A stretch of DNA of 64,000 nucleotides from Faecalibacterium prausnitzii (GTDB lineage Bacteria; Bacillota; Clostridia; Oscillospirales; Ruminococcaceae), in NCBI RefSeq assembly GCF_003287405.1, contig NZ_PRLD01000012.1, positions 1-64,000 of the forward strand. Direction: 5' to 3'. This document shows, piece after piece, positions 11,155 to 63,121 of the stretch. A program made the position numbers and the translations under genes. The first letter of the stretch is position 1, and each line of letters opens with the position of its first letter. The notes below the pieces were generated by a model, which ran no database searches, had not been told where the DNA came from, and worked only from the letters and a program-made list of their open reading frames with translations.

Positions 11155-11161
11155 AATACCA

Positions 11162-11199: not shown

Positions 11200-11210
11200 T
11201 GCGTGTGCGC

Positions 11211-11291
11211 AAGGCCGATTCGTCTCACACACTTGCGCTTTCGTCTAAAATAGGGTATGATTGAGACGAAAGACGGGCATCATGAGACAAA
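11211..11291 (+). promoter_or_regulatory. Four-site operator-like array and promoter before fic
   Basis: Four copies of TTCGTCTMA or its complement lie at 11219, 11240, 11262 and 11283, spaced 21, 22 and 21 bases, that is two helical turns. The first two point one way and the last two the other. A promoter with TTGCGC (11233-11238) and TATGAT (11256-11261), spacer 17, is embedded so that site 2 falls in the spacer and site 3 touches the -10. The same array recurs after the gene. Confidence 0.75.
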
Positions 11292-11321
11292 AGAACCGCC
11301 GGAAGAAGGAGGAAACACAGT

Positions 11322-47384: not shown

Positions 47385-47475
47385 GGAGATGTATCGAAGC
47401 GGTCGTAACGAGAACGACTCGAAATCGTTTTGTCCTTAACCGGGCACGTGGGTTCGAATCCCACCATCTCCGCCA
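47385..47475 (+). tRNA. tRNA-Ser (anticodon CGA)
   Basis: Acceptor GGAGATG pairs with CATCTCC; the CCA end is encoded. The anticodon stem AACGA/TCGTT encloses CTCGAAA with anticodon CGA at 47420-47422, reading UCG. There is a long variable arm (GTCCTTAACCGGGCAC region) as in serine tRNAs, and a T arm GTGGGTTCGAATCCCAC. The integrase gene follows, so this tRNA is the likely insertion site. Confidence 0.95.
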
Positions 47476-47477
47476 GA

Positions 47478-47512
47478 AGTCGCAGATTCAAACGAACCTG
47501 CGACTTTTTCTT
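47478..47512 (+). terminator. Terminator of tRNA-Ser
   Basis: AGTCGCAG, loop, CTGCGACTTTTTC. Confidence 0.85.
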
Positions 47513-47583
47513 TTGCATCAAGCAAAGAAAGACCGCTTTTTCCTCATCACAGTATGCTTTATACATGAACGATAAATCCATAA

Positions 47584-48831
47584 TTATTTGGGGAGCTTGG
47601 ATTCTCCCAGAAGGTTCGCAATGACCCCAGCAGACCCCTGTTTGCTTTTGTAATCGAGATGTGCGTAGATGTCAGCGGTGGTAGAAAAGGTGCTGTGCCC
47701 CAGCCATTCCTGAACCTGCTTCATAGATACGCCGTTCATCACCATCAGGCTGGCGCAGCTGTGGCGCAGATCGTGGAAACGGATATGCTTCAGCCCGTAC
47801 TTGGTCAGAAGCCAGTCGAAGTGCTCCGTCACGAAGTTCGGGCGGATCAGCTTGCCTTCCTGATCGGTGCAGACGAAATCCAGATACTCAGTGCTGTAGC
47901 TCTTCTTGAACAGCTTGCGGTAAAGCTGCTGCCTTTCCTTCTGCTTCAGAAGTTCTTCTTCCACAGCCGGGATCAGCGGCAGGGTGCGGCAGCTGGTCTT
48001 GTTCTTCATCACATCGCTGACCACAGGAACGTACTTGCCGTTCACCAACTGTTCCGTCACCTTGTGATTGATGGTGATGGACTTGCGCTCAAAGTCGATA
48101 GACGACCACTTCAGCCCAAGCACCTCGCTGCGGCGCAGACCGTAGTAGGCTGTAATGAGGATGCACAGGTGCAGGGGGTCATCCTGCGATACTTCCAGCA
48201 GCTGCTGGACTTCATCCTTGGAGTAGAAGTTGGGCCGGAAGCTGTTCTTCTTCGGGCGGTCAACTTTCAGCATCGGGTTGGTTTCCAGATAGTCCTTGCG
48301 GACGGCATCCTTAAACGCTTTACCGAAGATGGCGTGGTAGTGAATGACCGTGTTAGTGGTGTAGCCCTCCAGCAAGATCTTCTCCTGAAACTCATCCAGC
48401 ACCTGCGGCGTGACCTCGCACAGCTTCAAGCCCAGCGGCTCAAAATACTGCGTGATGCGCCCGGTGATCATCTGATTGTAGCTGATAAAGGTTGCAGGCT
48501 GGATGGATGCTTTATGGACTTGCACCCACTCGTTGAGATAATCCAGAAACAGCATCTCCGACTTGCTGACGGGTTGGAGATGCTGCGGCAGGGGCTTGGC
48601 GGTTTTAGCATCTACTTTTTCGTAGGCTCCGCCCCGCCCTGTGGGCAGCTCCCCGGTCTCATCATAGTGGAGCAATACTTCCCGGAGCATGGATTCTGCC
48701 TTGCGCTTGTTGCCTCGGACGGTCAAACCTGTGGAGATCCACTTGATCCTCCGCTTGCCGTTGGCATCATAAAGATTGATCACGAAATAGAAACGTCCAT
48801 TTTTCTCTTGGACAGACCCTGTAGTTTTCAT
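47584..48831 (-). CDS. int: Tyrosine site-specific integrase
   Basis: 415 residues; ATG at 48831 with AAAGGAGG six bases away. An N-terminal arm-binding domain (GRFYFVINLYDANGKRR) and a core-binding SAM-like domain (about 95-180) are followed by the catalytic domain with GLRRSEVLGLKW (Arg), HDLRHSCASL (His, Arg), LGHSTFSTTADIYAH (His and Tyr). It integrates and excises an element at a specific site, here probably the adjacent tRNA-Ser. It is divergent from nothing and follows the excisionase-like gene by 17 bases. Confidence 0.95.
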   Translation of the reverse strand: MKTTGSVQEKNGRFYFVINLYDANGKRRIKWISTGLTVRGNKRKAESMLREVLLHYDETGELPTGRGGAYEKVDAKTAKPLPQHLQPVSKSEMLFLDYLNEWVQVHKASIQPATFISYNQMITGRITQYFEPLGLKLCEVTPQVLDEFQEKILLEGYTTNTVIHYHAIFGKAFKDAVRKDYLETNPMLKVDRPKKNSFRPNFYSKDEVQQLLEVSQDDPLHLCILITAYYGLRRSEVLGLKWSSIDFERKSITINHKVTEQLVNGKYVPVVSDVMKNKTSCRTLPLIPAVEEELLKQKERQQLYRKLFKKSYSTEYLDFVCTDQEGKLIRPNFVTEHFDWLLTKYGLKHIRFHDLRHSCASLMVMNGVSMKQVQEWLGHSTFSTTADIYAHLDYKSKQGSAGVIANLLGESKLPK

Positions 48832-48848
48832 CATAAACCTCCTTTGGG

Positions 48849-49124
48849 TCAACAGGCGTGCTGTCCGTTGCTGCACCCACAGCATACCACATCCAGCGGC
48901 GGATTTCCAGCCGGGAAGGTGCTCTGCCCGGTGAGCAGGAACTCGATCACACTCAGCTTCGGGATACGATAGGTGCGGCCGATTTTAAGCGCAAATAGGC
49001 GGCGGGAACGGATCAGTTCCCCAACTGTATGGCGGTTCAGACCGAGCATCTCCGCAGCCTGCTGAAGGCTGACGGCATCGGGGTAACCGGGAAACATCTG
49101 GGAATAGGCATTGTTAAACTTCAT
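48849..49124 (-). CDS. xis: Excisionase-like helix-turn-helix protein
   Basis: 91 residues; ATG at 49124 with GAAGGAGTG. A MerR-like winged helix of the excisionase family: VSLQQAAEMLGLNRHTVGEL, IRSRRLFALKIGRTYRIPK. It would bend DNA at the element end and favour excision over integration. It lies directly upstream of int in the same operon. The last 30 residues (Cys-rich tail) are not part of the fold. Confidence 0.85.
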   Translation of the reverse strand: MKFNNAYSQMFPGYPDAVSLQQAAEMLGLNRHTVGELIRSRRLFALKIGRTYRIPKLSVIEFLLTGQSTFPAGNPPLDVVCCGCSNGQHAC

Positions 49125-49154
49125 AGGCACTCCTTCAGCATAAGTAGTCTAAGG

Positions 49155-49459
49155 TCAAAAAGTGTGTTACCTGCGGTTATATCCTTTGCAGCAAAGCTGC
49201 GGTCAGGTGGCAATGTAAAGAGAGCTGACAGTAGTTTCAACTCTCGCATCGCAGATAGACTTGCAGCCCATCTGCGTCAATATGATATAGGTCTCCCATA
49301 TTCGCCCTCGGCACCCTAGGAGTGGGGAATCGTCCGGCAGCGGATTCACACCGCACCATTGGCATTTCAGCCACCCCGTCTTCGTTATGACCGGGCTGCG
49401 AGTTACAGAAGTACCTTTTGTGAAGTGCCGGACGATTGAGCTATTCTGTTTTCAAAGAA
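49155..49459 (-). ncRNA. Structured RNA, copy 1 (unknown class)
   Basis: About 300 bases, strongly similar to 49979-50257. On the minus strand it follows a TATAAT (49471-49466) and TTCTTTGAAAACAGAA, and ends near CTTTTTG. AATCGTCCGGCA (49437-49426 on the minus strand) pairs perfectly with 49339-49328, enclosing a 100-base domain. Another stem is at CAGATGGGCT/AGTCTATCTG. No conserved reading frame. Strand inferred from the -10 box and from base changes that keep G-U pairs. Confidence 0.55.
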
Positions 49460-49506
49460 CAGAGTATTATAGAAAATCTTCGGAATTTAGGGCTTCCGAA
49501 AATTAT

Positions 49507-50436
49507 CCCTCTAATTGGTAGCCGATGAAAAAGGGCTTTTTGTTACCAGAAAAAGAAATTCGTTAAAAAGTTCTTGGAAAATATAGCCGAAGTAGCTTCT
49601 TGGTTAAAATAACGTCGGTCCATGGGGTAACCGATGGAGGGCGAAACTTTGCAACAATGGCGGTGCCTGAAGTTGAAAGTGGTCTTGAAAAAAGATGCCC
49701 TCAATAGGTAGCCGACGAAAAAGGCCAAAACGTAGCAATGTTTTTGAAAATTAACAAAAAAGTCACAATTTGCATTTGCAAATCGTGCGTCTGCTATTAA
49801 ACGGAATTGTCATAATAATCATACGAGTACAAGCAAACCTTCGTGAAAGAAGATACTCCGAAGAAATACCCCTCTATATACGAGCCCACGAAAAGGGCTA
49901 TTCTGCACCCACCACTTACAATCTGTAACCAAGATGTAATCGTTCAAATTGATACTAGCCAGAAGAATCCTTCATAGCGTCAAAAAGTGTGTCACCTGCG
50001 GATAGGTGGCAATGTAAAGAGAGCTGACAGTAGTTTCAACTCTCGCGTCGCAGATAGGCTTACAGTCCATCTGCGTCAATATGATATAGGTCTCCCATAT
50101 TCGCCCTCGGCACCCTAGGGGTGGGGAATCGTCCAGCAGCGGGCTTGCACCGCTTCATTGGCATTTCAGCCACCCCGTCTTCGTTATGACCGGGCTGCGA
50201 GTTACAGAAGTACCTTTTGTGAAGTACCGGACGATTGAACTGTTCTGTTTTCAAGGAGCCGCTTTTTATAGAAAATCTTCGGAATTTAGGGCTTTTGAAA
50301 AATCATCCCCCTAATTGGTAGCCGACGAAAAAGGCCATTCTGCACCCACAATTTATAACTTGTAACCAAGATGTAATCTCTCGAATCGATATTCGCCAAA
50401 AAAAGAAGCCTTCATATACGAACCCAGTTGAAAGGC
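49507..50436. repeat. Six dispersed copies of a GTAGCCGACGAAAAAGGCC-like motif
   Basis: At about 49507-49536, 49624-49642, 49698-49726, 49870-49899, 50307-50335 and 50409-50436. The consensus is CCTCTAATTGGTAGCCGACG then AAAAAGGCC, with drift. An AACAAAAAAGTCACAATT word also recurs (near 49755 and 50465), and a block of about 65 bases (GGCTATTCTGCACCCAC...) at 49896 and 50333. Not a CRISPR: spacing is irregular and sequences between are not unique spacers. Confidence 0.6.
49979..50257 (-). ncRNA. Structured RNA, copy 2 (unknown class)
   Basis: Same architecture as copy 1, about 800 bases away. The long stem is kept with two changes that turn into G-U pairs on the minus strand (AATCGTCCGGTA with TGCTGGACGATT), at 50236-50225 and 50138-50127. 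It lacks a 24-base hairpin insert present near 49180 in copy 1. The -10-like box reads TATAAA. A small peptide frame open in copy 1 is stopped here, so the unit is not coding. Confidence 0.55.
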
Positions 50437-50533
50437 CAAAATACAACCACATCTTCGAAAGTTAACAAAAAAGTCACAATTGGCACTTATGAAAAAAGAA
50501 GACTGGATTTCTCCAGCCTTCCAAAAGTATGTA

Positions 50534-50971
50534 TCAATGGTTGCAGTTCAAGATCTTCTCAAGCGTGTCCGCAAACCTGACATTCTGCTCCTTCGTCCGC
50601 TTTGGGCTCCCCTTGGGGTGCTTTCCGGCACGGAGGAGCTTTTTGTTTTCATACCGCCGCAGCATGAGAGCGTCTATGTTGTCGGCGGTGTATTCCAGAC
50701 CATTCTGGTTCAGCACCCGGGCGCACTTGGCAAGGCACATACTCGCCAGCCCGTAGTCCTGTGTTACGACAACATCCCCCGGCTTTACCCGGTTGACAAG
50801 CGCAAAGTCTACGCTGTCGATACCCTTGTCGAATACCATCGTCTGTGCACCCTCACGTTCGATCTGGTGCGAGGTGTCGCACAGGATAATGACAGGAACG
50901 CCGAACTGCTTTGCAATCTGCAATGTCAAATCGACAACCGGACAGCCATCTGCATCGATCAAAATGGTCAT
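50534..50971 (-). CDS. YaiI/YqxD (DUF188) family protein
   Basis: 145 residues; ATG at 50971 with GATGGAGGAAC. The NYN/PIN-like fold shows MTILIDADGCPVVD at the start, VIILCDTSH, and DVVVTQDYGLASMCLAK with the acidic residues expected for metal binding. The family is conserved but poorly characterised; a nuclease-like role is possible. It overlaps the end of the esterase gene before it by four bases (ATGA), so the two are co-translated. Confidence 0.9.
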   Translation of the reverse strand: MTILIDADGCPVVDLTLQIAKQFGVPVIILCDTSHQIEREGAQTMVFDKGIDSVDFALVNRVKPGDVVVTQDYGLASMCLAKCARVLNQNGLEYTADNIDALMLRRYENKKLLRAGKHPKGSPKRTKEQNVRFADTLEKILNCNH

Positions 50972-51651
50972 GCGTGTTCCTCCATCACCCACCGAAAGGC
51001 TTTCGCAGTGCGCAGGTCGGCGTCTTTGAAATGCCCGCCGCTGTTCCATTCAAGGGTGCAGTCTGCGCCACGCTCTGCAAGCCGACTGTGCAGGGTGCGG
51101 ATATTATCCCCCACCGCAGCCATGACAGCGTTTTTCGTGCGCTCTTCCTTGTCGCCAAGGCTCAGATAAATGTGCTGTGCCTGTATCGGATGCTGCTGTT
51201 CAAACTCCATCCAGCCCGGAAACCAAACAGAGGGGGATGCGGCGGCGACACCATAGAACAGATCAGTCTGGGTGGATGCCCACAACGCAAACAGCCCGGC
51301 CAGTGAATAGCCGCCCAGAATGATTTTGACGTTTTCCGGGAGATGAAACTGCCGCTTCAGCGTGGGGATGACCTGTTCTATCAGAAAGCGCAGGGTGTCC
51401 ATAGCATTGCCGCCAAATCCTTGCGTTCCCCACACAGCAGGGGCTTCCCACGGAGAAAGTGCATTGTTCCAGCTTTCCACGGGCACGGCCGCAAACAAAA
51501 AATTCCAGCTGCTCTGCGCAATCACTGTCACTTCATGGTCTATGCTCTGCAACTCATGTTCGCCTGTCATTTGGAGCAGTAGGTATTCTGCATGGGGCTC
51601 GCCGTAAATGCGGCAAGGTTTGTTCCCGATTTGCATTGTCTGTGCAGTCAT
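50968..51651 (-). CDS. Esterase family alpha/beta hydrolase
   Basis: 227 residues; ATG at 51651 with CGGGAGGACG. The longer upstream frame is non-coding hairpin sequence. Fold features: LGGYSLAGLFALWAS around the nucleophile Ser, IYLSLGDKEERTKN and WNSGGHFKDADLR with the catalytic His. It resembles PF00756 esterases related to enterochelin esterase. The substrate is unknown. Located inside the island, upstream of the DUF188 gene. Confidence 0.8.
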   Translation of the reverse strand: MTAQTMQIGNKPCRIYGEPHAEYLLLQMTGEHELQSIDHEVTVIAQSSWNFLFAAVPVESWNNALSPWEAPAVWGTQGFGGNAMDTLRFLIEQVIPTLKRQFHLPENVKIILGGYSLAGLFALWASTQTDLFYGVAAASPSVWFPGWMEFEQQHPIQAQHIYLSLGDKEERTKNAVMAAVGDNIRTLHSRLAERGADCTLEWNSGGHFKDADLRTAKAFRWVMEEHA

Positions 51652-51654
51652 TGC

Positions 51655-52100
51655 GGCGTCCTCCCGAAAAAACTTTGATAAGCCCAGTATAGCAACTGAA
51701 AAATTGTTTTGCAATTCAAAAGGCGTTCGCATTCGCAGCAAGCAGTGCTTCGTGGTACCATTCTGGAACACCGAAGCTGTCTTGCAAGCAATGTCTTTGT
51801 ATATACAAAGACTCTTGCCTTGCAAGAGCTTGTTGGGCGCAGCCCAAACCCGTTGTTCTGCCTCGTGCCGATGCAGGCTTCGCGTTTCTGCAAAACGCTC
51901 TTTCAGCACTCTGTAAGAGTGCACAGCCATCACGGTTCCGTGATGTTCACAGGGATTGGGACTGCATCCCAACAAGCAGAATACGCACGGCAAATTTGCA
52001 ATGCCATGCGTGTTTGAGCCTTTGTATATACAGAGGCACTGCTTGCTGGAGCAATCCAAAATCCAAAACTTGTTTTTTGTGGAAAGAAGAAATTTTGAAA
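51655..52100. other. Hairpin-rich intergenic stretch, no gene
   Basis: No supported gene. Two similar palindromes centred on TTTGTATATACA lie at 51789-51812 (GTCTTTGTATATACAAAGAC) and 52017-52040 (GCCTTTGTATATACAGAGGC). Several small hairpins fall between them (TTGGGCGCAGCCCAA, TCACGG-TTCCGTGA, TTGGGACTGCATCCCAA). Minus-strand reading gives repeated CIYK words that come from the palindromes, not from a protein. Confidence 0.6.
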
Positions 52101-52730
52101 CTAGCAACCATTATTACGCTTTTCAGACAGTAATGAGATAGCTTCTCCGAGAAGATTGTGAATCTCAGGTCGGTCTGCTATTTTAGCATATAGACCCTTC
52201 ATATTTAGCAGAAGATAGTCTAGCCGACAGATTTGACGATCGAGCTCTAATTGCTTATAGAAATCAGTTACTTCGCTTGGTTGTCCATCCACAACCCTTA
52301 TGTAATATAGTTCATCTCTAAAAAAAGCATTCCGTATACCATCGTGATCTGGATGTAATAATGATCGAATCTCAGGTTCTATTAAGAAGTCGCTCTTATT
52401 ATGGTTGCATGTCTGACAAGATAATACGATGTTGCTAATATCCCCTGCAGCCGCTTTATTAACAAAGCAGTCTGCTGATTGGGGGATAAAGTGATCGATT
52501 TCAAACATTGTCTTTGGAATGATTTTTATCGAAGTACCACAATAGGCACACTTTCCATTGTAGATTTTTATAAAGTCTTTCTTGTAGGTGCCCTCATTCT
52601 TTGAAACATACGCATGAATATCCTTTGCACGTGGGTGCTGTGTACGGAATGAATCCATGAAAATTTTCTTGTCTTCTAATATGTTGCCATATCCGGGACA
52701 ATATTCTGTATCTCTGTAATCTTTACTCAT
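52101..52730 (-). CDS. HNH endonuclease, predicted effector of the island operon
   Basis: 209 residues. The HNH region is complete: CAYCG (Cys61, Cys64), FEIDHFIPQS (Asp79, His80), then NIVLSCQTCNHNKSD (Cys105, Cys108, His110, Asn111). The two CxxC pairs bind structural zinc. The C-terminal half is helical and unrecognised. The start at 52730 overlaps the receiver gene by eight bases. With a DNA methyltransferase in the same operon, cutting of unmodified DNA is the natural inference. Confidence 0.88.
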   Translation of the reverse strand: MSKDYRDTEYCPGYGNILEDKKIFMDSFRTQHPRAKDIHAYVSKNEGTYKKDFIKIYNGKCAYCGTSIKIIPKTMFEIDHFIPQSADCFVNKAAAGDISNIVLSCQTCNHNKSDFLIEPEIRSLLHPDHDGIRNAFFRDELYYIRVVDGQPSEVTDFYKQLELDRQICRLDYLLLNMKGLYAKIADRPEIHNLLGEAISLLSEKRNNGC

Positions 52731-53328
52731 TGATTATTTTTGACATCTCCTGAAAAGCGAGTACAAGTTTATCGATATCTGCTGCGGTAAGACTATCATA
52801 TGCTGCGGTGCCATTCAAGGAACCAAGTACCCGTTCTTTTATAATCGGCTCCCAACTGTCGTTGCTCTTAAATCGAATTGCCAAATTGCGATAAATTTTC
52901 ACTTGTTCAATTGCATGTTTGATAATATCAGGAAGAATATGATCATAGTATTCCTTTGCAGCTAATCCACATTTGGGATTGAATTTTGCAATGGTTTTGA
53001 CAGAATCATCCTCACCATTTTGAGTAATAACTACAACTTCGATAAATGGAAATTGCTTTTTTAAAATAATCTTGAACTCTTCTCCGGAAAATTTCCCATC
53101 GGTTGCAGAATTGTTTTCAAAAAGCCGCGAGTCAATCAGAATGATATTTGCCGTAGCCACTTGAGGATTTTCTAGTAGACTTTTGTATCCTTCAGCTGGT
53201 TTGAATTCGTGTTCAGATATATTAAGGACTATATCACTTTGCAGAGCGTTTTTTAAGTCTTTGTCTAAATATTCGCTTAGTTGTGAATCGATGTCATCAT
53301 CGATATAAAGTAAATTATATTCCTCCAT
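52723..53328 (-). CDS. Receiver-domain (response regulator-like) protein
   Basis: 201 residues; ATG at 53328 overlaps the stop of the GHKL gene by one base (TAATG), and CCTCC before it is the ribosome site region. Receiver residues are in place: acidic cluster YIDDDID (10-13), phospho-acceptor Asp66 in ILIDSRLF, Thr102 in VVVITQNG, Lys125 in LAAKEYYDH. The C-terminal 70 residues (from about 135) are helical and are not a DNA-binding domain I recognise. It is likely phosphorylated by the GHKL/kinase protein and passes the signal to the HNH protein. Confidence 0.85.
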   Translation of the reverse strand: MEEYNLLYIDDDIDSQLSEYLDKDLKNALQSDIVLNISEHEFKPAEGYKSLLENPQVATANIILIDSRLFENNSATDGKFSGEEFKIILKKQFPFIEVVVITQNGEDDSVKTIAKFNPKCGLAAKEYYDHILPDIIKHAIEQVKIYRNLAIRFKSNDSWEPIIKERVLGSLNGTAAYDSLTAADIDKLVLAFQEMSKIINE

Positions 53329-55472
53329 TACAATGAACCTCCAATTGAAAACTCGGCAAAAAATCCTTTTGTACCGCGAATATCCAAAATTTGACCACCA
53401 GACATATTTACGGTGTTATTGACGATCCACATTCCGAGACCATGACCGTTTTTTCGGGTTGTTTCGTGAACCTCTAAAATTTTCATAGGATTGTTCTGAT
53501 ACTTTCGGGCTAAGCCTACACCATTATCGGAATATGAAAATTTCAGCAAACCATCTTCTAATGAACCCTGAATTATAATATTCAGATGGTTGCTCTTTTC
53601 ATTTTGCTGAATACTATTTAGTATAAGATTGTCAAAAATAACATGAAGCACGTCCTCAGATAGATAGTACTCAATATCAGAAGCTACTCTAATACATATC
53701 GATATCCACGCATAATCTCGTTCCCAACTCTCTTTTATACGGTTTAAAAGTACTATTATAGACTGCATTCCAGGCTGAAATTGACGCTTTTCGATTTCTG
53801 AAAGCATTGTATCCATAAAAGAAACAATCTTAGCACATTTTTCACGTCCCTTTTCAAGAAGTACGGGAACATTTTTATACGCCTTCCTTGTCTTTTCTGG
53901 CGATAAAAGCTCATCCCACATTCCATATTCTTGCAGTGCGGCAATAATATAATCTGTATTCGCTGAAATCGAATTACGATCGTTTCTCATTTCATGGGCA
54001 ATAGAAGAAGCTTTCAGGCCGGTTGTTGCAAGCACATTTAGAATACGGATGTCATACTTATAACGTTCCTCTACATTCGTCCGCTCTTGGCGAGCATCTT
54101 GGCTTTCTTGGCGGTAGTTCTTGATTTCGTCAACGAGTTGCATAGATTCTTGCACGGTAAGCGTAGGAACCAATTTTGGATTTTGAACGACTTTATCTGA
54201 AACGGGAGTTTTAGCAGGAATGGAAACAGATTCATTCTTGACATTAATATGTCTCACGATATCTTGACGGTACCGCTCAAACTCCTTAAATCCCAGCAAA
54301 ATAATATCAACAAAGAGCTGATAATAAATATTTTCATCCAGACCTTGTCTATTAGATAAGTCTTGAAGCATCGCGTTGCGCCTTTTGTCGATTTCTATCT
54401 TTCCCGATATCTGGTTTTCACGAACTCTCCAAGCTCCTGTGGGATGTGAAGCTGCAGCGGGTGATTTACGGGAACGTTTTCCAAAGCCTAACCAATCTTT
54501 TTTTCCGTCATAGGCGGATATACTGAAGGCATTTCTATACAGAATCACTCCGCCTGGCATTGGCGCAGGTAAACCGTGATGTTTATACAAAAATTTTTCA
54601 CATTCAATGGATGATGGCTTCATACAAAAGAAAAAAGTGCCTGAGAAATCACCTAATTGAGATGCAATGTCTTCCAATTGTTCTTCCGTTAAATCATAAT
54701 TGGGTAATCCGGTTAGCTCGGTAACGATATCAACTTCACTTTCTTTTCTTTGGAGATTTATATTTGGACAATAATCCTGAGCAGAATCCAAAAATTCATC
54801 CGAATCAATTACTGTGTTCAGTGTTTTTTCATGGCTGTTATAATTTATAGAAATGCAAGAAAGACAATTCACGCCAAGAACTGGTTGAGGAAGATAGAAG
54901 GGAATATCGCCAGAAAAGTCTGGATGTGTCACAGAGATGTTCATAGCCCTGTCATTATAGGTTTTCGACAAGAAATTGACGAGATTTTCAATTTTCTTTT
55001 TGCCCCACTTTTCGCGCAATCCAGAGATTTTGATAGTAGTTCCCACGGATAATTTTGTTGAATCCTGCCGCATGGAAGATGAATTCCAATCTGTTTCCCA
55101 AATTATTCCTGCATTGGAATCCTTCTTTGTTTGAATCATTACATGATTGCCGAGTCGTGCCAAGGCAAAACGACCAACGCCTTTTGATCCGGCCAGAACT
55201 CGCTTCCGATTATTTGCATCAAAAATTTCATAAGATTTATCGCTTTTTCCAACATGCATCCATGCCGTTCTGATATTATTTTCGTCCATTCCTTGTCCGT
55301 CGTCAGCAATAACAAGCTGATCTCCTGAAAAAGAAATGTTCACATGCAGAGCTCCGGCGTCATAGGAATTTTTGACTAGTTCAAGAATAGCGGATTCGTC
55401 GTTTGTGAAGTTGTTCACACCCAGCAGATACGCAATTGTGCTGTCTTCAATTACATATTGTAAATGTTCCAT
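53328..55472 (-). CDS. Protein with two GHKL ATPase domains (Hsp90/MORC-like plus histidine kinase-like)
   Basis: 714 residues from 55472, where TGAGGAG is ten bases upstream; the ATG at 55490 would overlap the methyltransferase gene. The N-terminal GHKL fold has the N-box ELVKNSYDA (31-39), DDGQGM (57-62) and GSKGVGRFA (95-103), as in Hsp90, MutL and MORC. The middle is unrecognised. The C-terminal part looks like a histidine kinase: H-box SIAHEMRND (His493), N-box HVIFDNLILNSIQQN (610-624), DNGVGL (649-654), GHGLGMWIVNN (676-686). No transmembrane segment, so it senses something in the cytosol. It is flanked by a DNA methyltransferase and a receiver gene in one operon. Confidence 0.88.
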   Translation of the reverse strand: MEHLQYVIEDSTIAYLLGVNNFTNDESAILELVKNSYDAGALHVNISFSGDQLVIADDGQGMDENNIRTAWMHVGKSDKSYEIFDANNRKRVLAGSKGVGRFALARLGNHVMIQTKKDSNAGIIWETDWNSSSMRQDSTKLSVGTTIKISGLREKWGKKKIENLVNFLSKTYNDRAMNISVTHPDFSGDIPFYLPQPVLGVNCLSCISINYNSHEKTLNTVIDSDEFLDSAQDYCPNINLQRKESEVDIVTELTGLPNYDLTEEQLEDIASQLGDFSGTFFFCMKPSSIECEKFLYKHHGLPAPMPGGVILYRNAFSISAYDGKKDWLGFGKRSRKSPAAASHPTGAWRVRENQISGKIEIDKRRNAMLQDLSNRQGLDENIYYQLFVDIILLGFKEFERYRQDIVRHINVKNESVSIPAKTPVSDKVVQNPKLVPTLTVQESMQLVDEIKNYRQESQDARQERTNVEERYKYDIRILNVLATTGLKASSIAHEMRNDRNSISANTDYIIAALQEYGMWDELLSPEKTRKAYKNVPVLLEKGREKCAKIVSFMDTMLSEIEKRQFQPGMQSIIVLLNRIKESWERDYAWISICIRVASDIEYYLSEDVLHVIFDNLILNSIQQNEKSNHLNIIIQGSLEDGLLKFSYSDNGVGLARKYQNNPMKILEVHETTRKNGHGLGMWIVNNTVNMSGGQILDIRGTKGFFAEFSIGGSL

Positions 55473-55476
55473 GAAA

Positions 55477-56892
55477 TCAAATCTCCTCAAACTGATAGTC
55501 GTTGATATCTTTGCAAGTTATTCGCTTGGATTTTCCACTAACACTTAAGCCTTGGTTTAAAATATACTCCAAAAAATCTTTGCTTTGAAGGATTGTTAGC
55601 GCGTCTTGTAGACTGGATTTACCATCGGAAACGGTTATATAGATACCGGAATATGGGATGTCATCAGCTGCCAAATAATATACCTCAACAGTATTTGTTA
55701 CTACTGTTGAGAGAAGAAGTTTTTCCTGATGGAGATGGCTTAAAGCCTGTGAGCGACCATATTCGTACCACTTTGCTGATTTGTCAGCATCACGCACAAT
55801 GAGTTTGTCTTTGAAAGCGAGTAGGTGTTCGTATGTGTTTGGAAATCGAGATTTAAAATCATCTTCTTCATAGCGCATCAGGGTATCTTTTTCATCATAA
55901 TAGTACGGGAAAATTATTTGTTCTTTTACATTGCGCCGGAGAGAGCGTGGAGCGGCACCTTTTCTTAAACATCCCGGTTCAATAGAGGCTTCTTCTTTTA
56001 CAATAAATGCCTTATTTAATTGAGTTGCAACGGCTATAGATGCGTGATACCTGCTACCAAACCGGATTGTTCTTTTTCTGTTAATATCAGTATTCAAAAA
56101 AACCCATTTATCGCCTAAAAGTTTTTTTTTCACTTGAACGCTATTTGCTTTCGATGTGGCACGATAATTAATAGTTGCTATATTATCTCTGCTTTCATAA
56201 ACCAGAATGCTGCTTGATGTAAGCGTATCTTCAAATAATTGACTATTGGGATATTCCCATACGGTGCTGATGCCAGGAAGAAGTTTTTTTCGTATATCGT
56301 CTGCAAAAACATTCTTGTAAATATTGCTTGGAATCAATTGAACCATCTTTCCACCAGAAGCAAGTAAGTCGACACCTTTTTCTAGGAAAGCATAGCAGTA
56401 GTCGAATTTCCCCTTTTTACAAGTTCTAAAATTTTGACGGATGAATTTTCGATTTGTTTCATCAATATCGTGATATGAAATATACGGAGGATTTCCAATA
56501 ATAAAATCAAATTTAATATCTGGAGTCCACTGAAGTGCATCTGTGCACACAAACGACCAATTGACGGTTGAAATTCCATAACTCCTTACGATTTCATTGA
56601 GATCGCTGATGCATTGATCGTACAATTGTGGATCAAGTTCAATACCATAAATGTCAGCAGACAGTCCAGAGGAAATATTATTAACATCGATATTCTGCGT
56701 GAGAGCATCCTCAACGTATCGCTTGACAATTTGTTTGATAATATTACCAGATCCAAATGAATACTCTAAAACTTTTTTCCCAAATAAGTCACGAGAATAA
56801 CCTGCCAAATCGAGCATGTCGTCTACTTTGTTTAAGGGGGTAAACTTTTGGCACTTCTTTTTATTGCGTTCATTAGCTATAATTGGATTCAT
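55477..56892 (-). CDS. N6-adenine DNA methyltransferase (Eco57I/TaqI-like)
   Basis: 471 residues; ATG at 56892 with CGAGGTAAG. The SAM-binding motif I is VLEYSFGSGNI (41-51) and the catalytic motif IV is GNPPYISY, with NPPY at 134-137. A target-recognition-like C-terminal half follows (from about 230). It lacks the nuclease part of type IIG enzymes, so cutting must come from a partner, most simply the HNH protein at the end of the operon. It leads the four-gene operon. Confidence 0.9.
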   Translation of the reverse strand: MNPIIANERNKKKCQKFTPLNKVDDMLDLAGYSRDLFGKKVLEYSFGSGNIIKQIVKRYVEDALTQNIDVNNISSGLSADIYGIELDPQLYDQCISDLNEIVRSYGISTVNWSFVCTDALQWTPDIKFDFIIGNPPYISYHDIDETNRKFIRQNFRTCKKGKFDYCYAFLEKGVDLLASGGKMVQLIPSNIYKNVFADDIRKKLLPGISTVWEYPNSQLFEDTLTSSSILVYESRDNIATINYRATSKANSVQVKKKLLGDKWVFLNTDINRKRTIRFGSRYHASIAVATQLNKAFIVKEEASIEPGCLRKGAAPRSLRRNVKEQIIFPYYYDEKDTLMRYEEDDFKSRFPNTYEHLLAFKDKLIVRDADKSAKWYEYGRSQALSHLHQEKLLLSTVVTNTVEVYYLAADDIPYSGIYITVSDGKSSLQDALTILQSKDFLEYILNQGLSVSGKSKRITCKDINDYQFEEI

Positions 56893-57035
56893 GACTTACC
56901 TCGAACTCTCAAATGTATTTCGCTTTTTACATGTATGAATCGACAAACAAGAAATCATTGATGCAAAATTTTCTATTAATAGTTTTTTGTTGACTTTTGA
57001 ATTACATATGTCAACCGGCATAGAAAGGTGCACTA
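56893..57035. other. AT-rich gap upstream of the methyltransferase operon
   Basis: It should hold the promoter of the four-gene minus-strand operon. GTTGAC at 56989-56994 and GTCAAC at 57010-57015 form an inverted pair 15 bases apart. No clean -35/-10 pair could be fixed. Confidence 0.4.
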
Positions 57036-57437
57036 TTATAGTATTGCTTTTTGAATCTTTTCCAGAATCGTCTGATCAGCCGGGAGCCACGGAACAGAAT
57101 CAAGCTCCTCTTTAGTCAGCCAGCGTGCAGCCTCGGCTTCTTTCAGCACCAGTTCGCCGGAGACCACCTCACACCAGAAACAGTCCATGGAAAGATGGAA
57201 GGCGGGATAATCGTATTCAATGGTGCCAATCAAATCGCCTACCGCGATCTCGGTGTCCAGCTCTTCCCGGATCTCTCGTTTCAGCGCCTGCTGCGGGGGT
57301 TCACCCGGCTCGATTTTGCCGCCTGGGAATTCCCATCCGCCCTTATATTCGCCGTAGCCGCGGGCGGTGGCATAAATTTTATGTTTCGTCTGAATATCGT
57401 CGCAGATCACAGCTGCAACAACGCGAACAACCTTCAT
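57036..57437 (-). CDS. NUDIX hydrolase (MutT-like)
   Basis: 133 residues; ATG at 57437 with AAAAGGAGAATATC that also overlaps the stop region of the helicase gene. The complete NUDIX box GGKIEPGEPPQQALKREIREELD (positions about 39-61) is in the usual GX5EX7REUXEEXGU form. It hydrolyses nucleoside diphosphate-linked substrates. The start is 12 bases after the helicase stop, so they form one operon. Confidence 0.92.
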   Translation of the reverse strand: MKVVRVVAAVICDDIQTKHKIYATARGYGEYKGGWEFPGGKIEPGEPPQQALKREIREELDTEIAVGDLIGTIEYDYPAFHLSMDCFWCEVVSGELVLKEAEAARWLTKEELDSVPWLPADQTILEKIQKAIL

Positions 57438-57449
57438 GATATTCTCCTT

Positions 57450-60400
57450 TTAACCGACCACCAGCTTGTTGGTCTTTTTGAGGAACTTTGCAGGAATCGG
57501 GCGGTCCAGCTTCCATGTGATGTTCATGGGGCGGGAGCCCTCGTGCTTCACATAATTCACCGTGCCCAGATAGGTATACGCCCCTGCACCGCCAAAACGG
57601 GCATCTGCCTTGAACTCGCGCACGAACAGCAGAACCCGGCTTCCTTTTGCCCGGTGATGGATGTACCGCTGCCCGGTGGCAGAGTTTTCGGCGGTGGTGC
57701 TCTGGCTCTGCCAGTGGAACAGGCTTTCGTTAATGGAATAATCCTTGTACATGGTGCTGGGAGAGTAATCCTTGTCCGCTTTGTTCAGGGTCACAAAGAA
57801 TACGTCCAGCTGCTTTTCCGGCAGCCACTTCACGCCCTCGCGGACGGTAGCAGGCTTCAAAAAGTCCAGTGCTACCAGCAGCTGGTCGCGGGTATAGGTG
57901 CAGTGCAGGTCCAGCGGACAATCAAAGCCTACATCCACAGGTTCGTCGATAAAATCAATGCGGTCATATTGATACTGCAAAAGTGCCTGCAGTTCCCCCA
58001 GCAAAACGGGACTATCTGAAAGTGCATACAGGTTGTCGAGCACTTCCTCGCCGTTCCAATCTTCAGCGGTTTTGCCCCAGACAGTGACATAGAACATCTG
58101 CAACATCCTCTGTTCAACAGGCGGCAAAGCTGAAAAATCCGTATTGTCCAGTTTGGGCAAAAGGTCCAGTAAAAATTGAATCCACCGGCGGGAATCTACT
58201 ACCGCGAACCGTGCAAAGGCTTTCGTCATAATCTCTTCAAGCGGTTCCGCGAAATCGTCCGTTACACCGGCGCGGACACACAACCGTGCAAAGCAGAGCT
58301 TCTTGCTGTAAATTGCACGCGGGTCAAGATGATAGTAATCGAGAAAATCGCCAAGGGTCAGCGGCAGGCCGGTGTCCTCTGTAAAAGATGCCGCGCGTGC
58401 CACAAGGCCGGAAGTGCGGTCATAGGAAGAGCTGATATTATCCAGCACATATTTTGCCGCGATCTTTTCCAGCTGGATATAACAGCCCTTGGGCGCAGAG
58501 ACAAAACCCTCTTTAATCTCTCGGCTGACGCTGTGGGTGGTGTTGGAGAGCAGGGCCGTAAACTTTTCCTCGAAATTGTACTTCTTGTTTGCCTGCCCGA
58601 TGAAGTCCAGCACGGTCAGGCATTCCTTGTTTTCAGCCAGACGCAGGCCGCGGCCCAGCTGCTGCAAAAACACGGTCAGCGACTCGGTGGGGCGCAGGAA
58701 CAGCACGGTGTTGACTTCCGGGATGTCCACGCCTTCGTTGTAAATGTCCACCACAAAAATGAAACGAATCTCCCCGGAAACGAGCTGCTGTTTGGCGGTG
58801 TTGCGCTCCTCATCGGAAGAATCGCCGGTCAGCGCTATGGACGGGATGGCGTGGGTGTTAAAATAGTCCGCCATGAACCGGGCGTGCTCGATGGAAACGC
58901 AGAAGCCAAGCCCCTTTACCTCGTCAATATCGGTGACATATTTCAGGATAGAATTAACCACAAGGTCAGCGCGGCGCTGTGCCACCATGCCGCTGAAGGT
59001 GTACAGGTTGGACAGTTCGGCCTTATCATAACCGCCGGTGCGCCATTTCAGACTGCTCAGGTCGGCCGTATCGGTCACGCCGAAATATTGGAACGGGCAC
59101 AGCAGTTTCCGGTCAATGGCTTCCGGCAGGCGAATCTCGGCGGCAACGCGCCCACCGAAATAATCCAGAATGCTCTTGCCGTCCATACGCTCCGGTGTGG
59201 CAGTCAGGCCCAACAAAATATGTGGCTGATAATACTCCAACAGCTTCTGATAGGTGGGCGCGGCGGCATGGTGGAATTCGTCCACCACGATATAATCGTA
59301 GAAATCAGCCCCGGTCTTGGCGGTAAAATCCTGCGAGTTGAAGGTTTGGATGGAAATAAACAGGTATTCAATGCTGTCCGCTTTGTAATTGCCGACCAAC
59401 AGTTCGCCGAAATTGGCATCTTTCAACACGGCACGGAAAGTGTACAGGCTCTGTTTCAGGATTTCTTCCCGATGCGCCACGAACAGCAGCCGGCAGGGCT
59501 TGCCGGGATGCTGTTTACAGAACCGCTTGTAATCCAGCGCCGAGATGACCGTTTTGCCGGTGCCGGTGGCGGCAACCACCAGATTGCGATTGTGCCCGCG
59601 CACGGTGCGTTCGGCTTCCAGCTTGTCCAGAATTTCCTGCTGGTAGGAATACGGCAGAATGTCCAGCGTGTAAATGCCGCTGTGGTCGGTCTCGCTGTAC
59701 TTTTCGGCTTTCAGGGCCCGCGCAAGGCGCTCCCGCTGACCTTCGTTGTAGTACTCAAACTCGCCGGCGTTCCAGTAGCTTTCAAAGGTGGCGGCAATCT
59801 TATCGATGGTCTCCGGTAGGTCTTTCCGGGTCACTTTGACGTTCCATTCCAGTCCGCTGGAAATGGCCGCGTTGGACAGGTTGGACGAGCCGACATAGGC
59901 TGTTGTAAAACCGGTGTCCCGGTAGAACACATACGTCTTTGCGTGGAGCCGGGTGCGCTTGGTGTCGTAGCTGACCTTGATTTTCGTATTAGGCAGCTGG
60001 CGCAGTTCTTCGATAGCCTTTACATCGGTGGCACCCATGTAGGAAGTGGTAATGATACGCAGCTCTCCGCCGTTCTGGGTAAACTGCCGCAGCTCGTCCA
60101 TAAGCAGGCGCAGACCGCTCCACTTGATGAAGGACACCAGCATGTCGATGTGGTCGGCAGACACGATCTCCTTTTTCAGTTCAGTGTACATCTGCGGCTC
60201 GTGGATGGCACCGGTGAACAACGAGCTTTGCGCAAGAGGCGTTTCCGGCCGTTCGATGTCTTTGGCCGCTTTTCCGGTGGCAAGGCGGGGGTCATTTTCC
60301 CGTAAAAGCGCAAGAAGCTGCTCTGCACGCTGGTCAACGCCCAGCGCGGCAAAGTCAGGTTCTTTGGTGGTAGTCTGGATGGTGCTTACGATCTGGTTTG

Positions 60401-60608
60401 CCAGAGCAATCTGTGCTTCGATGCCGCCGCCATTGTCCTGTACGTTGTCGAGGCCTTTCTGTACCACTTCGGTCAGGTACTGCGCCAGCACTTTAGAGGC
60501 TTCTGCCGTGTCGATGGGCGCAGTGGATTTACGAGCTTCCGGAACCTCCGAAAGCTCACGGTTCAGCGCATTGTTAATGACCTGTTCGTACAGTCCGGGG
60601 TGAAGCAT
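57450..60608 (-). CDS. PLD-like nuclease - SF2 helicase - DUF3427 protein
   Basis: 1052 residues; ATG at 60608 with CAAGGAAGTG. Residues about 140-290 are a phospholipase D-like nuclease with one HxK motif (LHAKTYVFYR, 221-230) and GSSNLSN (240-246). A DEAD/DEAH helicase follows from about 330: Walker A AATGTGKT, VVDEFHHAA, GLTATPERMDG, and motif VI QQLGRGLRL. The last 350 residues are DUF3427-like. This three-domain layout recurs in predicted anti-phage genes. The NUDIX gene behind it is probably a partner. Confidence 0.88.
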   Translation of the reverse strand: MLHPGLYEQVINNALNRELSEVPEARKSTAPIDTAEASKVLAQYLTEVVQKGLDNVQDNGGGIEAQIALANQIVSTIQTTTKEPDFAALGVDQRAEQLLALLRENDPRLATGKAAKDIERPETPLAQSSLFTGAIHEPQMYTELKKEIVSADHIDMLVSFIKWSGLRLLMDELRQFTQNGGELRIITTSYMGATDVKAIEELRQLPNTKIKVSYDTKRTRLHAKTYVFYRDTGFTTAYVGSSNLSNAAISSGLEWNVKVTRKDLPETIDKIAATFESYWNAGEFEYYNEGQRERLARALKAEKYSETDHSGIYTLDILPYSYQQEILDKLEAERTVRGHNRNLVVAATGTGKTVISALDYKRFCKQHPGKPCRLLFVAHREEILKQSLYTFRAVLKDANFGELLVGNYKADSIEYLFISIQTFNSQDFTAKTGADFYDYIVVDEFHHAAAPTYQKLLEYYQPHILLGLTATPERMDGKSILDYFGGRVAAEIRLPEAIDRKLLCPFQYFGVTDTADLSSLKWRTGGYDKAELSNLYTFSGMVAQRRADLVVNSILKYVTDIDEVKGLGFCVSIEHARFMADYFNTHAIPSIALTGDSSDEERNTAKQQLVSGEIRFIFVVDIYNEGVDIPEVNTVLFLRPTESLTVFLQQLGRGLRLAENKECLTVLDFIGQANKKYNFEEKFTALLSNTTHSVSREIKEGFVSAPKGCYIQLEKIAAKYVLDNISSSYDRTSGLVARAASFTEDTGLPLTLGDFLDYYHLDPRAIYSKKLCFARLCVRAGVTDDFAEPLEEIMTKAFARFAVVDSRRWIQFLLDLLPKLDNTDFSALPPVEQRMLQMFYVTVWGKTAEDWNGEEVLDNLYALSDSPVLLGELQALLQYQYDRIDFIDEPVDVGFDCPLDLHCTYTRDQLLVALDFLKPATVREGVKWLPEKQLDVFFVTLNKADKDYSPSTMYKDYSINESLFHWQSQSTTAENSATGQRYIHHRAKGSRVLLFVREFKADARFGGAGAYTYLGTVNYVKHEGSRPMNITWKLDRPIPAKFLKKTNKLVVG

Positions 60609-60829
60609 GATGACACTTCCTTGCAGTTTTCTTCTATTATAGCGCGGACAAAAGCCCTATTCAATGCTCACAATACGGATGAGACATTGCTTAACCACTC
60701 AAAAAGAACAATAAACAGGCAGGCTGCTGACATATTTCTGTACTAATCTCTGGAAAGAAGTCAGAAAGTGCTCTATAATGAACTTATAACGAATTCGGAT
60801 TCTACAAAATACCCAAAGAGGTGTGCTCT

Positions 60830-63082
60830 ATGGAACCATTAAAAGCAACCAGCGTCAATAGCCGTACGGAAGAACTGTTTGTTCAGCTGTTCTGTGAAGC
60901 ATTCGGCCCGGAGAAAACAGAAAATTTGCAGGTTCAGTATCCGTGTGTTGATATCTATGGTCGGCATCGCTACATCGACTTTGCGTTGGAATCGCCTGAA
61001 TCCAAAATTGCAATCGAGATAGACGGAGAAACTTACCACAACCCAAGTAAGGTTTCCGAGAACAAGTATGCAGATGACCTTCTGAAGCAGAACAGTCTGG
61101 TTTATGATAACTGGAAGGTTTACCGCTGGATTTACAGTCAGCTGGAAAAGCAGCCGGAAAAGGTCAAGGATGAGCTGATTACATTTTTGGGCAGCAGCCC
61201 AATGTTCAAGGCATTTGAAGCAGACCTTCCGGTTCAGATGGGTCAGACAATCGAACTCCGGGATTATCAGCAGGAAGCCATCGAGAACCTGAAAAAGGTG
61301 CGGGACGATGGGAAAACCATCGCATTGCTGTACCATGCGACAGGCGTAGGAAAGACCATTACCGCAGCGACAGATGCGAAAGCCGTGGGCGGGCGCACGC
61401 TGTTTCTGGTAAATGCGCTGAAACTAGCATCTCAGGCGAAGGATACCTTTGCGAGGGTGTGGCCGGAGGCGACACTTGGCGAGTATACCGGTGGACAGAA
61501 AGATGTTTCACAGACCGTTATTTTTGCAACTGTCCAGAGCATTTCCAAAGATTTGGAAAAGTTTTCGCCCACAGCGTTTGACTACCTGATTGTTGACGAG
61601 TGCCACCATGCGGCAGCGAATACCTATCAAAAAATCTTTACATATTTTCACCCGAAGTTCATTCTTGGCCTGACAGCGACCCCGGAACGCAGCGATGGCG
61701 AGGATATGCTGGAACTGTTTCAGAATGTGGCGCACAAGGTGGATTTGAAAACAGCAGTGGAACGTGGCGTGCTGGTGCCCATCCGCTGCATCCGGGTCAA
61801 AACTAACATCGATCTGACGGACGTGCGCATCAACGGTATCAAGTATAATTCGCAGGACTTGGAAAGCAAGCTGTTTATCCCGGAACGGAATCAGCTGATC
61901 GTGGATACCTATCTGAAATATGTGAACGGAAAAAAGACGGTGATCTTCTGCGCCAGCGTAGACCATGCTGCGGAAATCGCAAAGTTGCTGCGCGACAATG
62001 GAGTAGACGCAGAAGCCGTTTCTGGACGTGACCGTGTGGAGATTCGGGAGAAAGTCCTGAAGGATTACGAAACAGGGTCAACGGACGTATTGTGCGCCTG
62101 CGATTTGCTGAACGAAGGCTGGGACAGCCCGCATACCACCGTTCTGTTTATGGCACGGCCAACGATGTCCAAAACTATCTATATGCAGCAGCTTGGTCGT
62201 GGTACGCGCCGTTGTCCGGGCAAGGATGACTTGCTTGTCATCGACTTCGTAGACAACGCCAATATGTTCAATATGCCGTATAGTCTGCATCGTGTGCTGA
62301 ACATTGCCAAATATCAGCCGATGGCCTATGTTCTGGCACCGGAAAATAAACGGAAATTGGATCAGGATATGCTTTTCAAAGGCGAGAAGCCCGAAGCATG
62401 GCTGGATGTTCCGATTGATGTGGATAACTATGAAATCATTGACCTGTTCAACTGGCAGAACAGCGTCAAAGATATGATTTCGCAGATTGAGCTTGTCCGC
62501 ATGGTCGATGTTCAGTCCGAAACGGTTGAACGCTATATTAAAGACGGAAAAATCAAGCCTGATCTTTCCATTCCGTTTGGGGATAAGCGGATGTTCCACT
62601 ATTTCCGGGAGGAAAGCATCCGAAATATCGCTAAACAGTATGGCTGGGATTTAATTACGCCGCAGAATATGGCAGACAAGTTTATGAAGTTCATCGAAAC
62701 AATGGATATGAGCTATTCCTATAAGCCGGTGCTGCTCAAGGCAATCTACGAGTATATGGACAGCAACGGTCGGGTAGCTCTGCCGGATGTTGTGGATTAT
62801 TTTATCGACTTCTATGAAGATCGTAAAGCGCATGGGATGATAGCAGAAAAGCCGAACAGCATCTATCAGAAGGGTGGATACACCCGGAAAGATGTGGAGA
62901 AAAATGTTCTTTCCAATCCGTTCAAGCGGTTTGAGGATATGCGTTTCCTGATGCGCTGCAAGGATGTGGAAACCATTGAAGTCAACCCAATCATTTTCCG
63001 CAAGCTCACGAAGGAAGATTGGCTGCATATCATAAGGGTCTGCGATAAGAGTCTGGAAAAGTATTATACGAGAATCTCTTGA
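60830..63082 (+). CDS. Nuclease-helicase fusion (DUF559/Vsr-like plus SF2 helicase)
   Basis: 750 residues from 60830, with AAAGAGGTG eight bases upstream; the frame also opens at a GTG 60821. The N-terminal 100 residues have a PD-(D/E)XK-like pattern: YIDFAL (Asp50) and IAIEIDGETYH (Glu63, Asp65), as in very-short-patch-repair-like nucleases. The helicase has Walker A ATGVGKTITAA (170-180), VDECHHAA (about 253), GLTATPERSDG and QQLGRGTRRCPG. C-terminal domain unrecognised. It is divergent from the PLD-helicase operon, with a 221-base gap. Likely a restriction-type factor. Confidence 0.85.
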   Translation: MEPLKATSVNSRTEELFVQLFCEAFGPEKTENLQVQYPCVDIYGRHRYIDFALESPESKIAIEIDGETYHNPSKVSENKYADDLLKQNSLVYDNWKVYRWIYSQLEKQPEKVKDELITFLGSSPMFKAFEADLPVQMGQTIELRDYQQEAIENLKKVRDDGKTIALLYHATGVGKTITAATDAKAVGGRTLFLVNALKLASQAKDTFARVWPEATLGEYTGGQKDVSQTVIFATVQSISKDLEKFSPTAFDYLIVDECHHAAANTYQKIFTYFHPKFILGLTATPERSDGEDMLELFQNVAHKVDLKTAVERGVLVPIRCIRVKTNIDLTDVRINGIKYNSQDLESKLFIPERNQLIVDTYLKYVNGKKTVIFCASVDHAAEIAKLLRDNGVDAEAVSGRDRVEIREKVLKDYETGSTDVLCACDLLNEGWDSPHTTVLFMARPTMSKTIYMQQLGRGTRRCPGKDDLLVIDFVDNANMFNMPYSLHRVLNIAKYQPMAYVLAPENKRKLDQDMLFKGEKPEAWLDVPIDVDNYEIIDLFNWQNSVKDMISQIELVRMVDVQSETVERYIKDGKIKPDLSIPFGDKRMFHYFREESIRNIAKQYGWDLITPQNMADKFMKFIETMDMSYSYKPVLLKAIYEYMDSNGRVALPDVVDYFIDFYEDRKAHGMIAEKPNSIYQKGGYTRKDVEKNVLSNPFKRFEDMRFLMRCKDVETIEVNPIIFRKLTKEDWLHIIRVCDKSLEKYYTRIS

Positions 63083-63121
63083 AGTTAGTATAGAAAATAT
63101 CGATTTGGGGTGGCGATAACG

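Follow-up and report, generated by a model that had tools for sequence, protein, structure and literature searches.

A phosphorelay-type operon encoding an adenine methyltransferase and an HNH nuclease in Faecalibacterium prausnitzii: a possible switchable nuclease module with exchangeable methyltransferases

When a nuclease is encoded together with both a DNA methyltransferase and a two-component-like relay, to which partner does it belong? This question is raised by an operon of Faecalibacterium prausnitzii (assembly GCF_003287405.1, contig NZ_PRLD01000012.1), located at 52101-56892 on the minus strand of the 64,000-nucleotide stretch analyzed here, which we call the window. In transcription order, the operon encodes an adenine methyltransferase (MTase), a double-GHKL histidine kinase (HK), a stand-alone receiver (REC), and an HNH nuclease (HNH). 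An earlier note, made from the letters of this DNA alone, had proposed that the kinase senses phage or unmodified DNA and phosphorylates the receiver, the receiver releases the nuclease, and the methyltransferase protects the host. Comparing the operon with its relatives in other genomes, we found that HNH seems to be matched to the relay and not to MTase. We read the operon as a mobile defence system that resembles restriction and whose DNA nuclease would be gated by a two-component phosphorelay, and give this reading a probability of about one half.

One genome per species was scanned with the kinase alignment, and the best 80 of at least 536 confirmed relatives were used. With the window and 5 plasmid loci, 86 loci were examined using profiles for all four proteins. 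HK was longer than 680 residues in 79 of them; the other seven had an in-frame stop (L006), reached the end of the stretch (L034 and L040), or carried a short (L037 and L041) or split (L038 and L039) kinase gene. Beside the full-length HK, REC was found in 78 loci, HNH in 77, and MTase in 75, and all four genes were complete at full length in 70 of the 79. The nine loci not counted as complete comprise five near contig ends (L013, L017, L058, L059, and L073), one with a short HNH reading frame (L052), one with a split MTase gene (L071), one with a short REC (L088), and one in which no MTase was found (L054). Since the scan ignored neighbour genes, the four-gene linkage was not built into the search. 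A chance juxtaposition is rejected by the 70 complete loci, and the neighbourhood survey that the earlier note had named as a test of its proposal came out in favour of co-occurrence. The order is MTase-HK-REC-HNH in 45 complete loci and HK-REC-HNH-MTase in 25, with a median spacing of 5, -1, -4, and -4 bases.

The hosts span at least five phyla. Genome hosts among the best 80 relatives include at least Bacillota, Bacteroidota, Spirochaetota (Treponema), Gastranaerophilales, and Saccharibacteria, and the plasmid hosts include Deinococcus and Alphaproteobacteria. A scan of viral contigs with a single HK sequence gave no match. With the 62-member HK alignment, the viral scan (contigs that are IMG/VR entries) gave 11 loci, 9 of which matched all four genes, one of these with its MTase cut at the end of the stretch. 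In the Rhizobium phaseoli plasmid locus L006 (5620-8247), the in-frame stop interrupts the kinase gene, and the REC and HNH genes stay open.

Across the 70 complete loci, the four proteins fell into two parts by the rank correlations of their tree distances. The correlations were 0.92 for HK-REC, 0.89 for HK-HNH, and 0.88 for REC-HNH, and those of MTase were 0.17 with HK, 0.10 with REC, and 0.105 with HNH. Bootstraps over loci kept the gap (0.85-0.91 for REC-HNH, 0.04-0.20 for HNH-MTase), and the partial correlation of HNH and MTase given HK was -0.114. Within one MTase class (51 loci), HK, REC, and HNH correlated at 0.87-0.94 versus 0.21-0.25 for MTase. Loci L027 and L028 have HK, REC, and HNH proteins that are 72%, 81%, and 73% identical, and MTases that are 21% identical over about 200 residues. 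The reverse is seen in L065 and L068, whose MTases are 69% identical, with HK at 36% and HNH at 38%; the two pairs together form a double dissociation of HK/REC/HNH from MTase. At the level of sequence, HK, REC, and HNH evidently travel and evolve as one unit, and MTase is exchanged between loci.

Because HNH follows HK and REC over the 70 loci, and because the MTases of L027 and L028 differ so much, HNH appears to be matched to the relay. This match speaks against a plain type II restriction-modification (R-M) system and favours a nuclease that is gated by a phosphorelay and paired with an exchangeable MTase. The simple picture of the earlier note, in which MTase protects the sites that HNH cuts, is weakened, since HNH does not follow MTase over the whole set. 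We also examined partial correlations with all else held constant, which are hints only, species kinship being accounted for only through the other genes. The values were 0.28 for the C-terminal part of the kinase and REC, 0.38 for REC and HNH, and -0.23 for the kinase C-terminal part and HNH. The first two pairs are linked and the third is not, the pattern expected of a relay chain. That nuclease and MTase are decoupled is the strongest new point of this sequence comparison, and it makes the mechanism testable.

Does the relay have the residues to work? The double-GHKL plan claimed for HK was borne out by Pfam, which places HATPase_c_3 at residues 32-143 (55062..55397, minus strand; 1.1e-19) and the histidine-kinase catalytic domain HATPase_c at residues 612-701 (53388..53657, minus strand; 1.5e-13). 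HK residues are numbered here by the 720-residue reading frame, in which the His493 of the earlier note becomes His499. Residue counts for HK are over 62 members (61 of the 65 complete genome loci and the window), and the other alignments hold all 65 complete genome loci and the window (66 members); 4 complete plasmid loci were excluded from all alignments. HATPase_c was found in 62/62 and HATPase_c_3 in 61/62 members of the HK family. His499, the predicted phospho-acceptor in the H-box AHEMRN (53994..53996, minus strand), is invariant (62/62) and is followed by Glu or Asp in all 62. Residues N621, N625, G657, G682, G684, and G686 of the N, G1, and G2 boxes are also kept in 62/62, so that the H-box His and the N, G1, and G2 boxes of two-component kinases are all present. 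In the N-terminal GHKL domain, E37, N41, D63, and G65 are kept in 61/62, the remaining member having a gap. The family profile matches the sensor kinase 3a0r (4.4e-22) over the dimerisation and catalytic domains, and His499 is aligned with the AHEIRN H-box of this solved kinase. The AlphaFold2 model of HK has a mean predicted local distance difference test score (pLDDT) of 84 and a predicted template modelling score of 0.59.

REC (52723..53328, minus strand; 201 residues) is identified as a stand-alone receiver by its AlphaFold2 model and its family profile; alone, it had no Pfam match, and no output domain was found in it. A Response_reg match at E up to 1 was obtained for 27 of the 66 family members (best 2.8e-6), and the family profile matches RcsB and other receivers (best 2.3e-5). 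In the model (pLDDT 87.4), strand beta-3 ends at Asp66 (codon 53131-53133, minus strand) and beta-4 at Thr102. The best Foldseek match of this model is a response regulator at 1.5e-3, which is weak support; no match was below 1e-3, and most of the others listed are other alpha/beta folds. Asp66 is kept in 66/66, position 10 is Asp or Glu in 66/66, position 11 is Asp or Glu in 65/66, and position 102 is Thr or Ser in 66/66. REC thus has the phospho-acceptor Asp, the acidic pair, the Thr/Ser, and the modelled fold of a receiver. Asp66, Thr102, and Lys125 had been named as its intact receiver residues; the first two stand, and Lys125 does not, being Lys in 6/66. No one column stands out as the beta-5 lysine: Lys is found in 27/66 at Lys115, directly after the modelled strand 112-114, and in 31/66 at the column of Pro118. 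Lys115 is likelier than Lys125 from the model, with the column not firmly assigned. We read the kept residues as predicting that the His-Asp relay and the nuclease beside it are both active.

The other two proteins have the expected catalytic motifs. MTase (55477..56892, minus strand; 471 residues) is an Eco57I-type adenine DNA methyltransferase by its matches to Pfam Eco57I (3.2e-18) and N6_Mtase (3.3e-9) and to PADLOC MTase_II (5.1e-53). The NPPY motif ascribed to it is present (56482-56493, minus strand) and occurs in all 70 complete loci. HNH (52101..52730, minus strand; 209 residues) matches Pfam HNH PF01844 (2.3e-9), with the motif at 52389-52550 on the minus strand, and was rightly called intact, with His80, Asn100, and Asn109 in 66/66. 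Residues C61, Y63, H80, N100, C105, N109, K112, and R138 are all 66/66, and the family profile matches solved HNH nucleases (best 1.3e-5). Locus L024 carries two very different MTases (5574-6989 and 10354-11946; 27% identical over 123 residues), one on each side of HK-REC-HNH, as if it had been caught during an MTase exchange.

We hypothesized a mechanism for the phosphorelay-gated nuclease as follows. MTase would mark host DNA and, as the exchangeable part, would set which sequence is recognised. The kinase's GHKL module would close on DNA, or on MTase at unmarked sites, and this ATP-driven closure would trigger phosphorylation of His499 and then transfer to Asp66 of REC. Phosphorylated REC would bind HNH and switch it on, and foreign (or all) DNA would be cut. 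The best-supported element, going by the sequence comparison, is that HK-REC-HNH would be a switchable nuclease module accepting different adenine MTases. Either MTase would bring the specificity to this module, or the module would guard MTase.

Several observations weigh against the proposed gating. In the HK clade of the window (24 loci), the contrast largely fades, with MTase correlations of 0.33-0.49 and with 0.57 for HK-REC, 0.75 for HK-HNH, and 0.48 for REC-HNH. The nearest neighbour of HK is also that of MTase in 32 of the 70 loci (52 for REC and 44 for HNH), and a small HK-MTase link persists given HNH (0.18, permutation p 0.007). Two partial correlations lie off a simple chain, 0.55 for the kinase middle part and HNH and 0.49 for the kinase N-terminal part and REC. 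Residues 498-508 around His499 have pLDDT below 50 in the HK model. Locus L054 has an apparently uninterrupted HK-REC-HNH, and the search of its 13-kb stretch turned up no MTase; for this reason MTase may be dispensable for the system.

The likeliest alternative is a classical type II R-M system, in which HNH would be site-specific and cognate to MTase, and HK and REC would only regulate its action or assembly. In its favour, restriction enzymes of the small HNH kind exist, PADLOC likens the window MTase to those of type II, MTase stands beside HK-REC-HNH in 75 of the 79 loci, and the MTase-HNH correlation reaches 0.48 within the 24-locus clade. We consider it unlikely, however, in view of the HNH-MTase distance correlation of 0.105 and partial value of -0.114 over the 70 loci, of the 73% identical HNH proteins found with very different MTases and the reverse case, and of the 209-residue HNH protein, in which Pfam found no separate recognition domain. 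With swappable MTases, the role of a conventional cognate restriction enzyme becomes less likely for HNH.

Next in rank, and also improbable, is an abortive guard of MTase, in which the kinase would watch MTase or methylation, and a phage block of MTase would free HNH to break down all DNA, killing the cell. The association of very different adenine MTases with HK-REC-HNH fits the guarding of an activity rather than a sequence, and the weak partial correlation of the kinase middle part and MTase (0.21) would fit a contact. Such a guard should, however, kill in L054 and in L071, where a split MTase gene lies beside open HK, REC, and HNH genes, barring an assembly error or a distant MTase. Least probable by far is that the GHKL protein works as a DNA-remodelling ATPase, the role proposed for the paraMORC proteins placed in R-M loci (PMC2292703), with the kinase-like half and the receiver as structural leftovers: all 50 Foldseek matches listed for the HK model belong to the Hsp90 family (best E 3e-14, TM-score by query 0.30, matched range not given), but relay residues that had fallen out of use should drift, and H499 (62/62), D66 (66/66), and the N, G1, and G2 boxes are invariant.

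How does the phosphorelay-gated nuclease relate to described systems? The earlier note knew of no named system with this gene set and overlooked a predicted sister arrangement, the two-component-like HEF_HK (PF19191)/Response_reg_2 (PF19192) elements linked to R-M and to a C5-MTase (Bellieny-Rabelo 2021, PMC8011034). These elements share the double-GHKL kinase plan, an adjoining receiver-like gene, and an adjoining DNA MTase. We compared the operon with five HEF_HK loci from one bacterial order. HK has the N-terminal HATPase_c_3 and C-terminal HATPase_c of their kinases, aligns with them in hhalign at 1.1e-39 over 677 columns with the HE box aligned, and its profile finds the kinases of these loci at 8e-63 to 1e-58. 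In contrast, the REC, HNH, and MTase profiles gave no match in the five loci up to E 10. Their MTase is of the C5-cytosine type (by motif in five loci, by Pfam in the one tested), whereas that of the operon is an adenine enzyme of the Eco57I/N6 type and does not qualify as C5. Their kinases have 958-986 residues and their receiver-like proteins 542-575 (4 of the 5 loci), compared with 714 and 201 here. Another shared trait is that HNH_2 genes lie nearby in two of the loci with scanned neighbours (L115 and L118). In the operon, a stand-alone HNH gene overlaps the receiver gene; its profile gave no match to the HNH_2 protein of L115 (hhalign probability 0.3).

Family searches agreed with these differences. 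PF19191 had no match up to E 1 in the window HK and was absent from the first 25 of 70 families matched by the 62 members, where at most one member match could be hidden (controls L116 2e-20 and L117 1e-20). The window REC matched 0 Pfam families, and PF19192 was absent from the first 25 of 100 families matched by the 66 members, again with at most one member possibly hidden (controls L116 4e-31 and L117 1e-22). REC against Response_reg_2 in hhalign gave a probability of 1.1 and E 0.049, in a short alignment that puts D66 on their Asp. Scans for PF19192 gave 0 matches in 299 genomes of the window's phylum, where no control rang, 0 in the 5 locus genomes, and 6 matches (5 over the cut-off) in 246 genomes of the order of the L042 genome. 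Membership in the HEF_HK/Response_reg_2 families is rejected, though the kinases are homologous. Since the kinases align but REC misses Response_reg_2 and the MTase type differs, the operon is, judged by its sequences, a sister branch of the HEF_HK elements and not a member, with a similar working plan and different parts.

Relatives in the order of the window point to a still wider family. Among 295 genomes, a kinase match below 1e-30 was found in at least five including the window; most genomes had at most three candidates scored, so that these counts are lower bounds. Two of the five, the window and L146, match all four genes. L144 and L145 have HK and REC with a C5-MTase and no match to this HNH family, and in L143, where REC has no match, a C5-MTase and Vsr lie no more than 6 kb from HK. 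A sixth, weaker match (L147) has a C5-MTase, a kinase, and a 684-residue protein. Because these relatives pair the kinase with C5-MTases, the set of four genes seems to form a single branch of a larger family that combines an MTase, a MORC-type kinase, and often a receiver. The gene after REC in L144 (6454-7134) and L145 (2338-3186) encodes 226 and 282 residues, respectively, with no Pfam match over the cut-off, and these proteins are possible alternative effectors. In L147, the 684-residue protein (3028-5082) lies directly after the C5-MTase and kinase and has no Pfam match up to E 0.05; it is possibly a further receiver-like type. A fuller version of the gated-nuclease proposal can be held only tentatively, at somewhat less than even confidence. 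In it, the nuclease would be decoupled from recognition: a swappable adenine MTase would serve as specificity or guarded sensor, an Hsp90/MORC-like kinase would turn unmarked DNA into His phosphate, and a His-Asp relay would activate a generic HNH, as one branch of a wider phosphorelay-gated restriction family whose MTases (C5 or N6) and effectors vary.

Other known systems resemble the operon in part. Type II R-M systems likewise combine a DNA MTase and a nuclease in one operon; unlike them, this operon includes a kinase and a receiver, and its nuclease does not follow MTase over the 70 loci. Detocs is a defence system with phosphorelay-type proteins and a receiver fused to the effector, whereas here the 201-residue REC lacks a Pfam output domain, HNH is separate, and an MTase is present. 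MORC-like ATPases of the paraMORC type have been placed in R-M operons (Iyer 2008, PMC2292703). They are alike in having a GHKL ATPase in an R-M-like operon, with HNH neighbours mentioned for paraMORC1; the word receiver is absent from the passages considered, and HK has a full histidine-kinase core at its C-terminus with a receiver beside it. The legend to Fig. 6F of the DefensePredictor paper (PMC13092281) lists HATPase and REC as domains in predicted, unvalidated systems that may overlap this set.

The PADLOC check suggested by the earlier note and a search of NCBIfam gave no match for REC, and none of the four proteins exceeded an NCBIfam cut-off. No PADLOC system matched the set; HK had weak REase_II matches (best 4.3e-8), MTase matched mainly type II models, and HNH matched PtuB, PDC-M01B, and Cas9 among others. 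The BbrUII/HgiDII restriction family NF050001 was rejected (66.5 bits against a cut-off of 550, residues 23-170 only), as was the retron/Septu HNH effector PtuB NF041761 (20 bits against 150). The operon is real and widely conserved, and it is uncharacterised as far as the open-licence PMC literature searched reaches.

Two-component switches are best known for gene regulation. If the proposed gating is true, bacteria use such a switch to set off an immune system that cuts DNA, and the MORC/Hsp90-like module is its likely sensor. Bacterial relatives of the eukaryotic MORC proteins would then gain a testable biochemical output, autophosphorylation, and the two-component-like genes reported beside R-M genes in 2021 would be explained in part. 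It would also provide a nuclease that carries its own phosphate switch and whose partner MTase is already being swapped by nature.

The layout of the operon is as previously described. The four open reading frames lie at 52101-52730 (HNH), 52723-53328 (REC), 53328-55490 from a TTG (720 residues) or 53328-55472 from an ATG (714 residues) for HK, and 55477-56892 (MTase). Since the consensus of the HK relatives begins MEK close to the Met of the ATG at 55472, this codon is most likely the start of HK (53328..55472, minus strand). With it, the spacing given earlier, two overlaps (8 bases and 1 base) and a gap of 4 bases, is right. The AT-rich operon against a GC-rich chromosome was likewise reproduced, with a G+C of 0.376 in the operon and 0.613 in positions 1-45000 of the window (0.52-0.69 in 2-kb windows). 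The rest of the island around the operon is intermediate, at 0.50 (47441-52100) and 0.49 (56893-64000).

On the left side of the island, a tRNA-Ser gene (47385-47475) precedes a tyrosine integrase (47584..48885, minus strand; Phage_integrase 2.1e-25) and a small helix-turn-helix protein. The last 35 bases of the tRNA-Ser gene form the left attachment repeat (47441..47475, 35 bp) and are repeated perfectly at contig positions 69620-69654 (L126 5620-5654), 5.6 kb beyond the window end. Because this perfect repeat bounds the region, the operon seems to ride on an integrated element of about 22 kb at tRNA-Ser. No island-free junction was found in four close relatives, in which the tRNA word was not found either, and REC was not found in 13 same-genus genomes by a single-sequence search lacking a positive control. 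The flanking proteins of other complete loci (n=115) include integrases (6), recombinases (3), Mrr (2), and type I specificity proteins (2). These counts serve as colour only; they come from the first 25 families listed, with no control set, for at most one reading frame of at least 150 residues per side in the 69 complete loci without the window, after dropping those at stretch ends or above 900 residues.

The same element carries other genes that are likely involved in defence by their sequences, namely a type IV-like restriction helicase with PLD (57450-60608; PADLOC mREase_IV 3.6e-239), a second helicase, ResIII (60821-63082), with a weak REase match below the cut-off, and an AAA_21/RloB pair beyond the window (L126 1924-3719). 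A DUF188 gene and an esterase gene adjoin HNH inside the element (50534-51843), and very similar genes lie just outside its right end (L126 5971-7208); the segment was perhaps duplicated by nested or imprecise integration.

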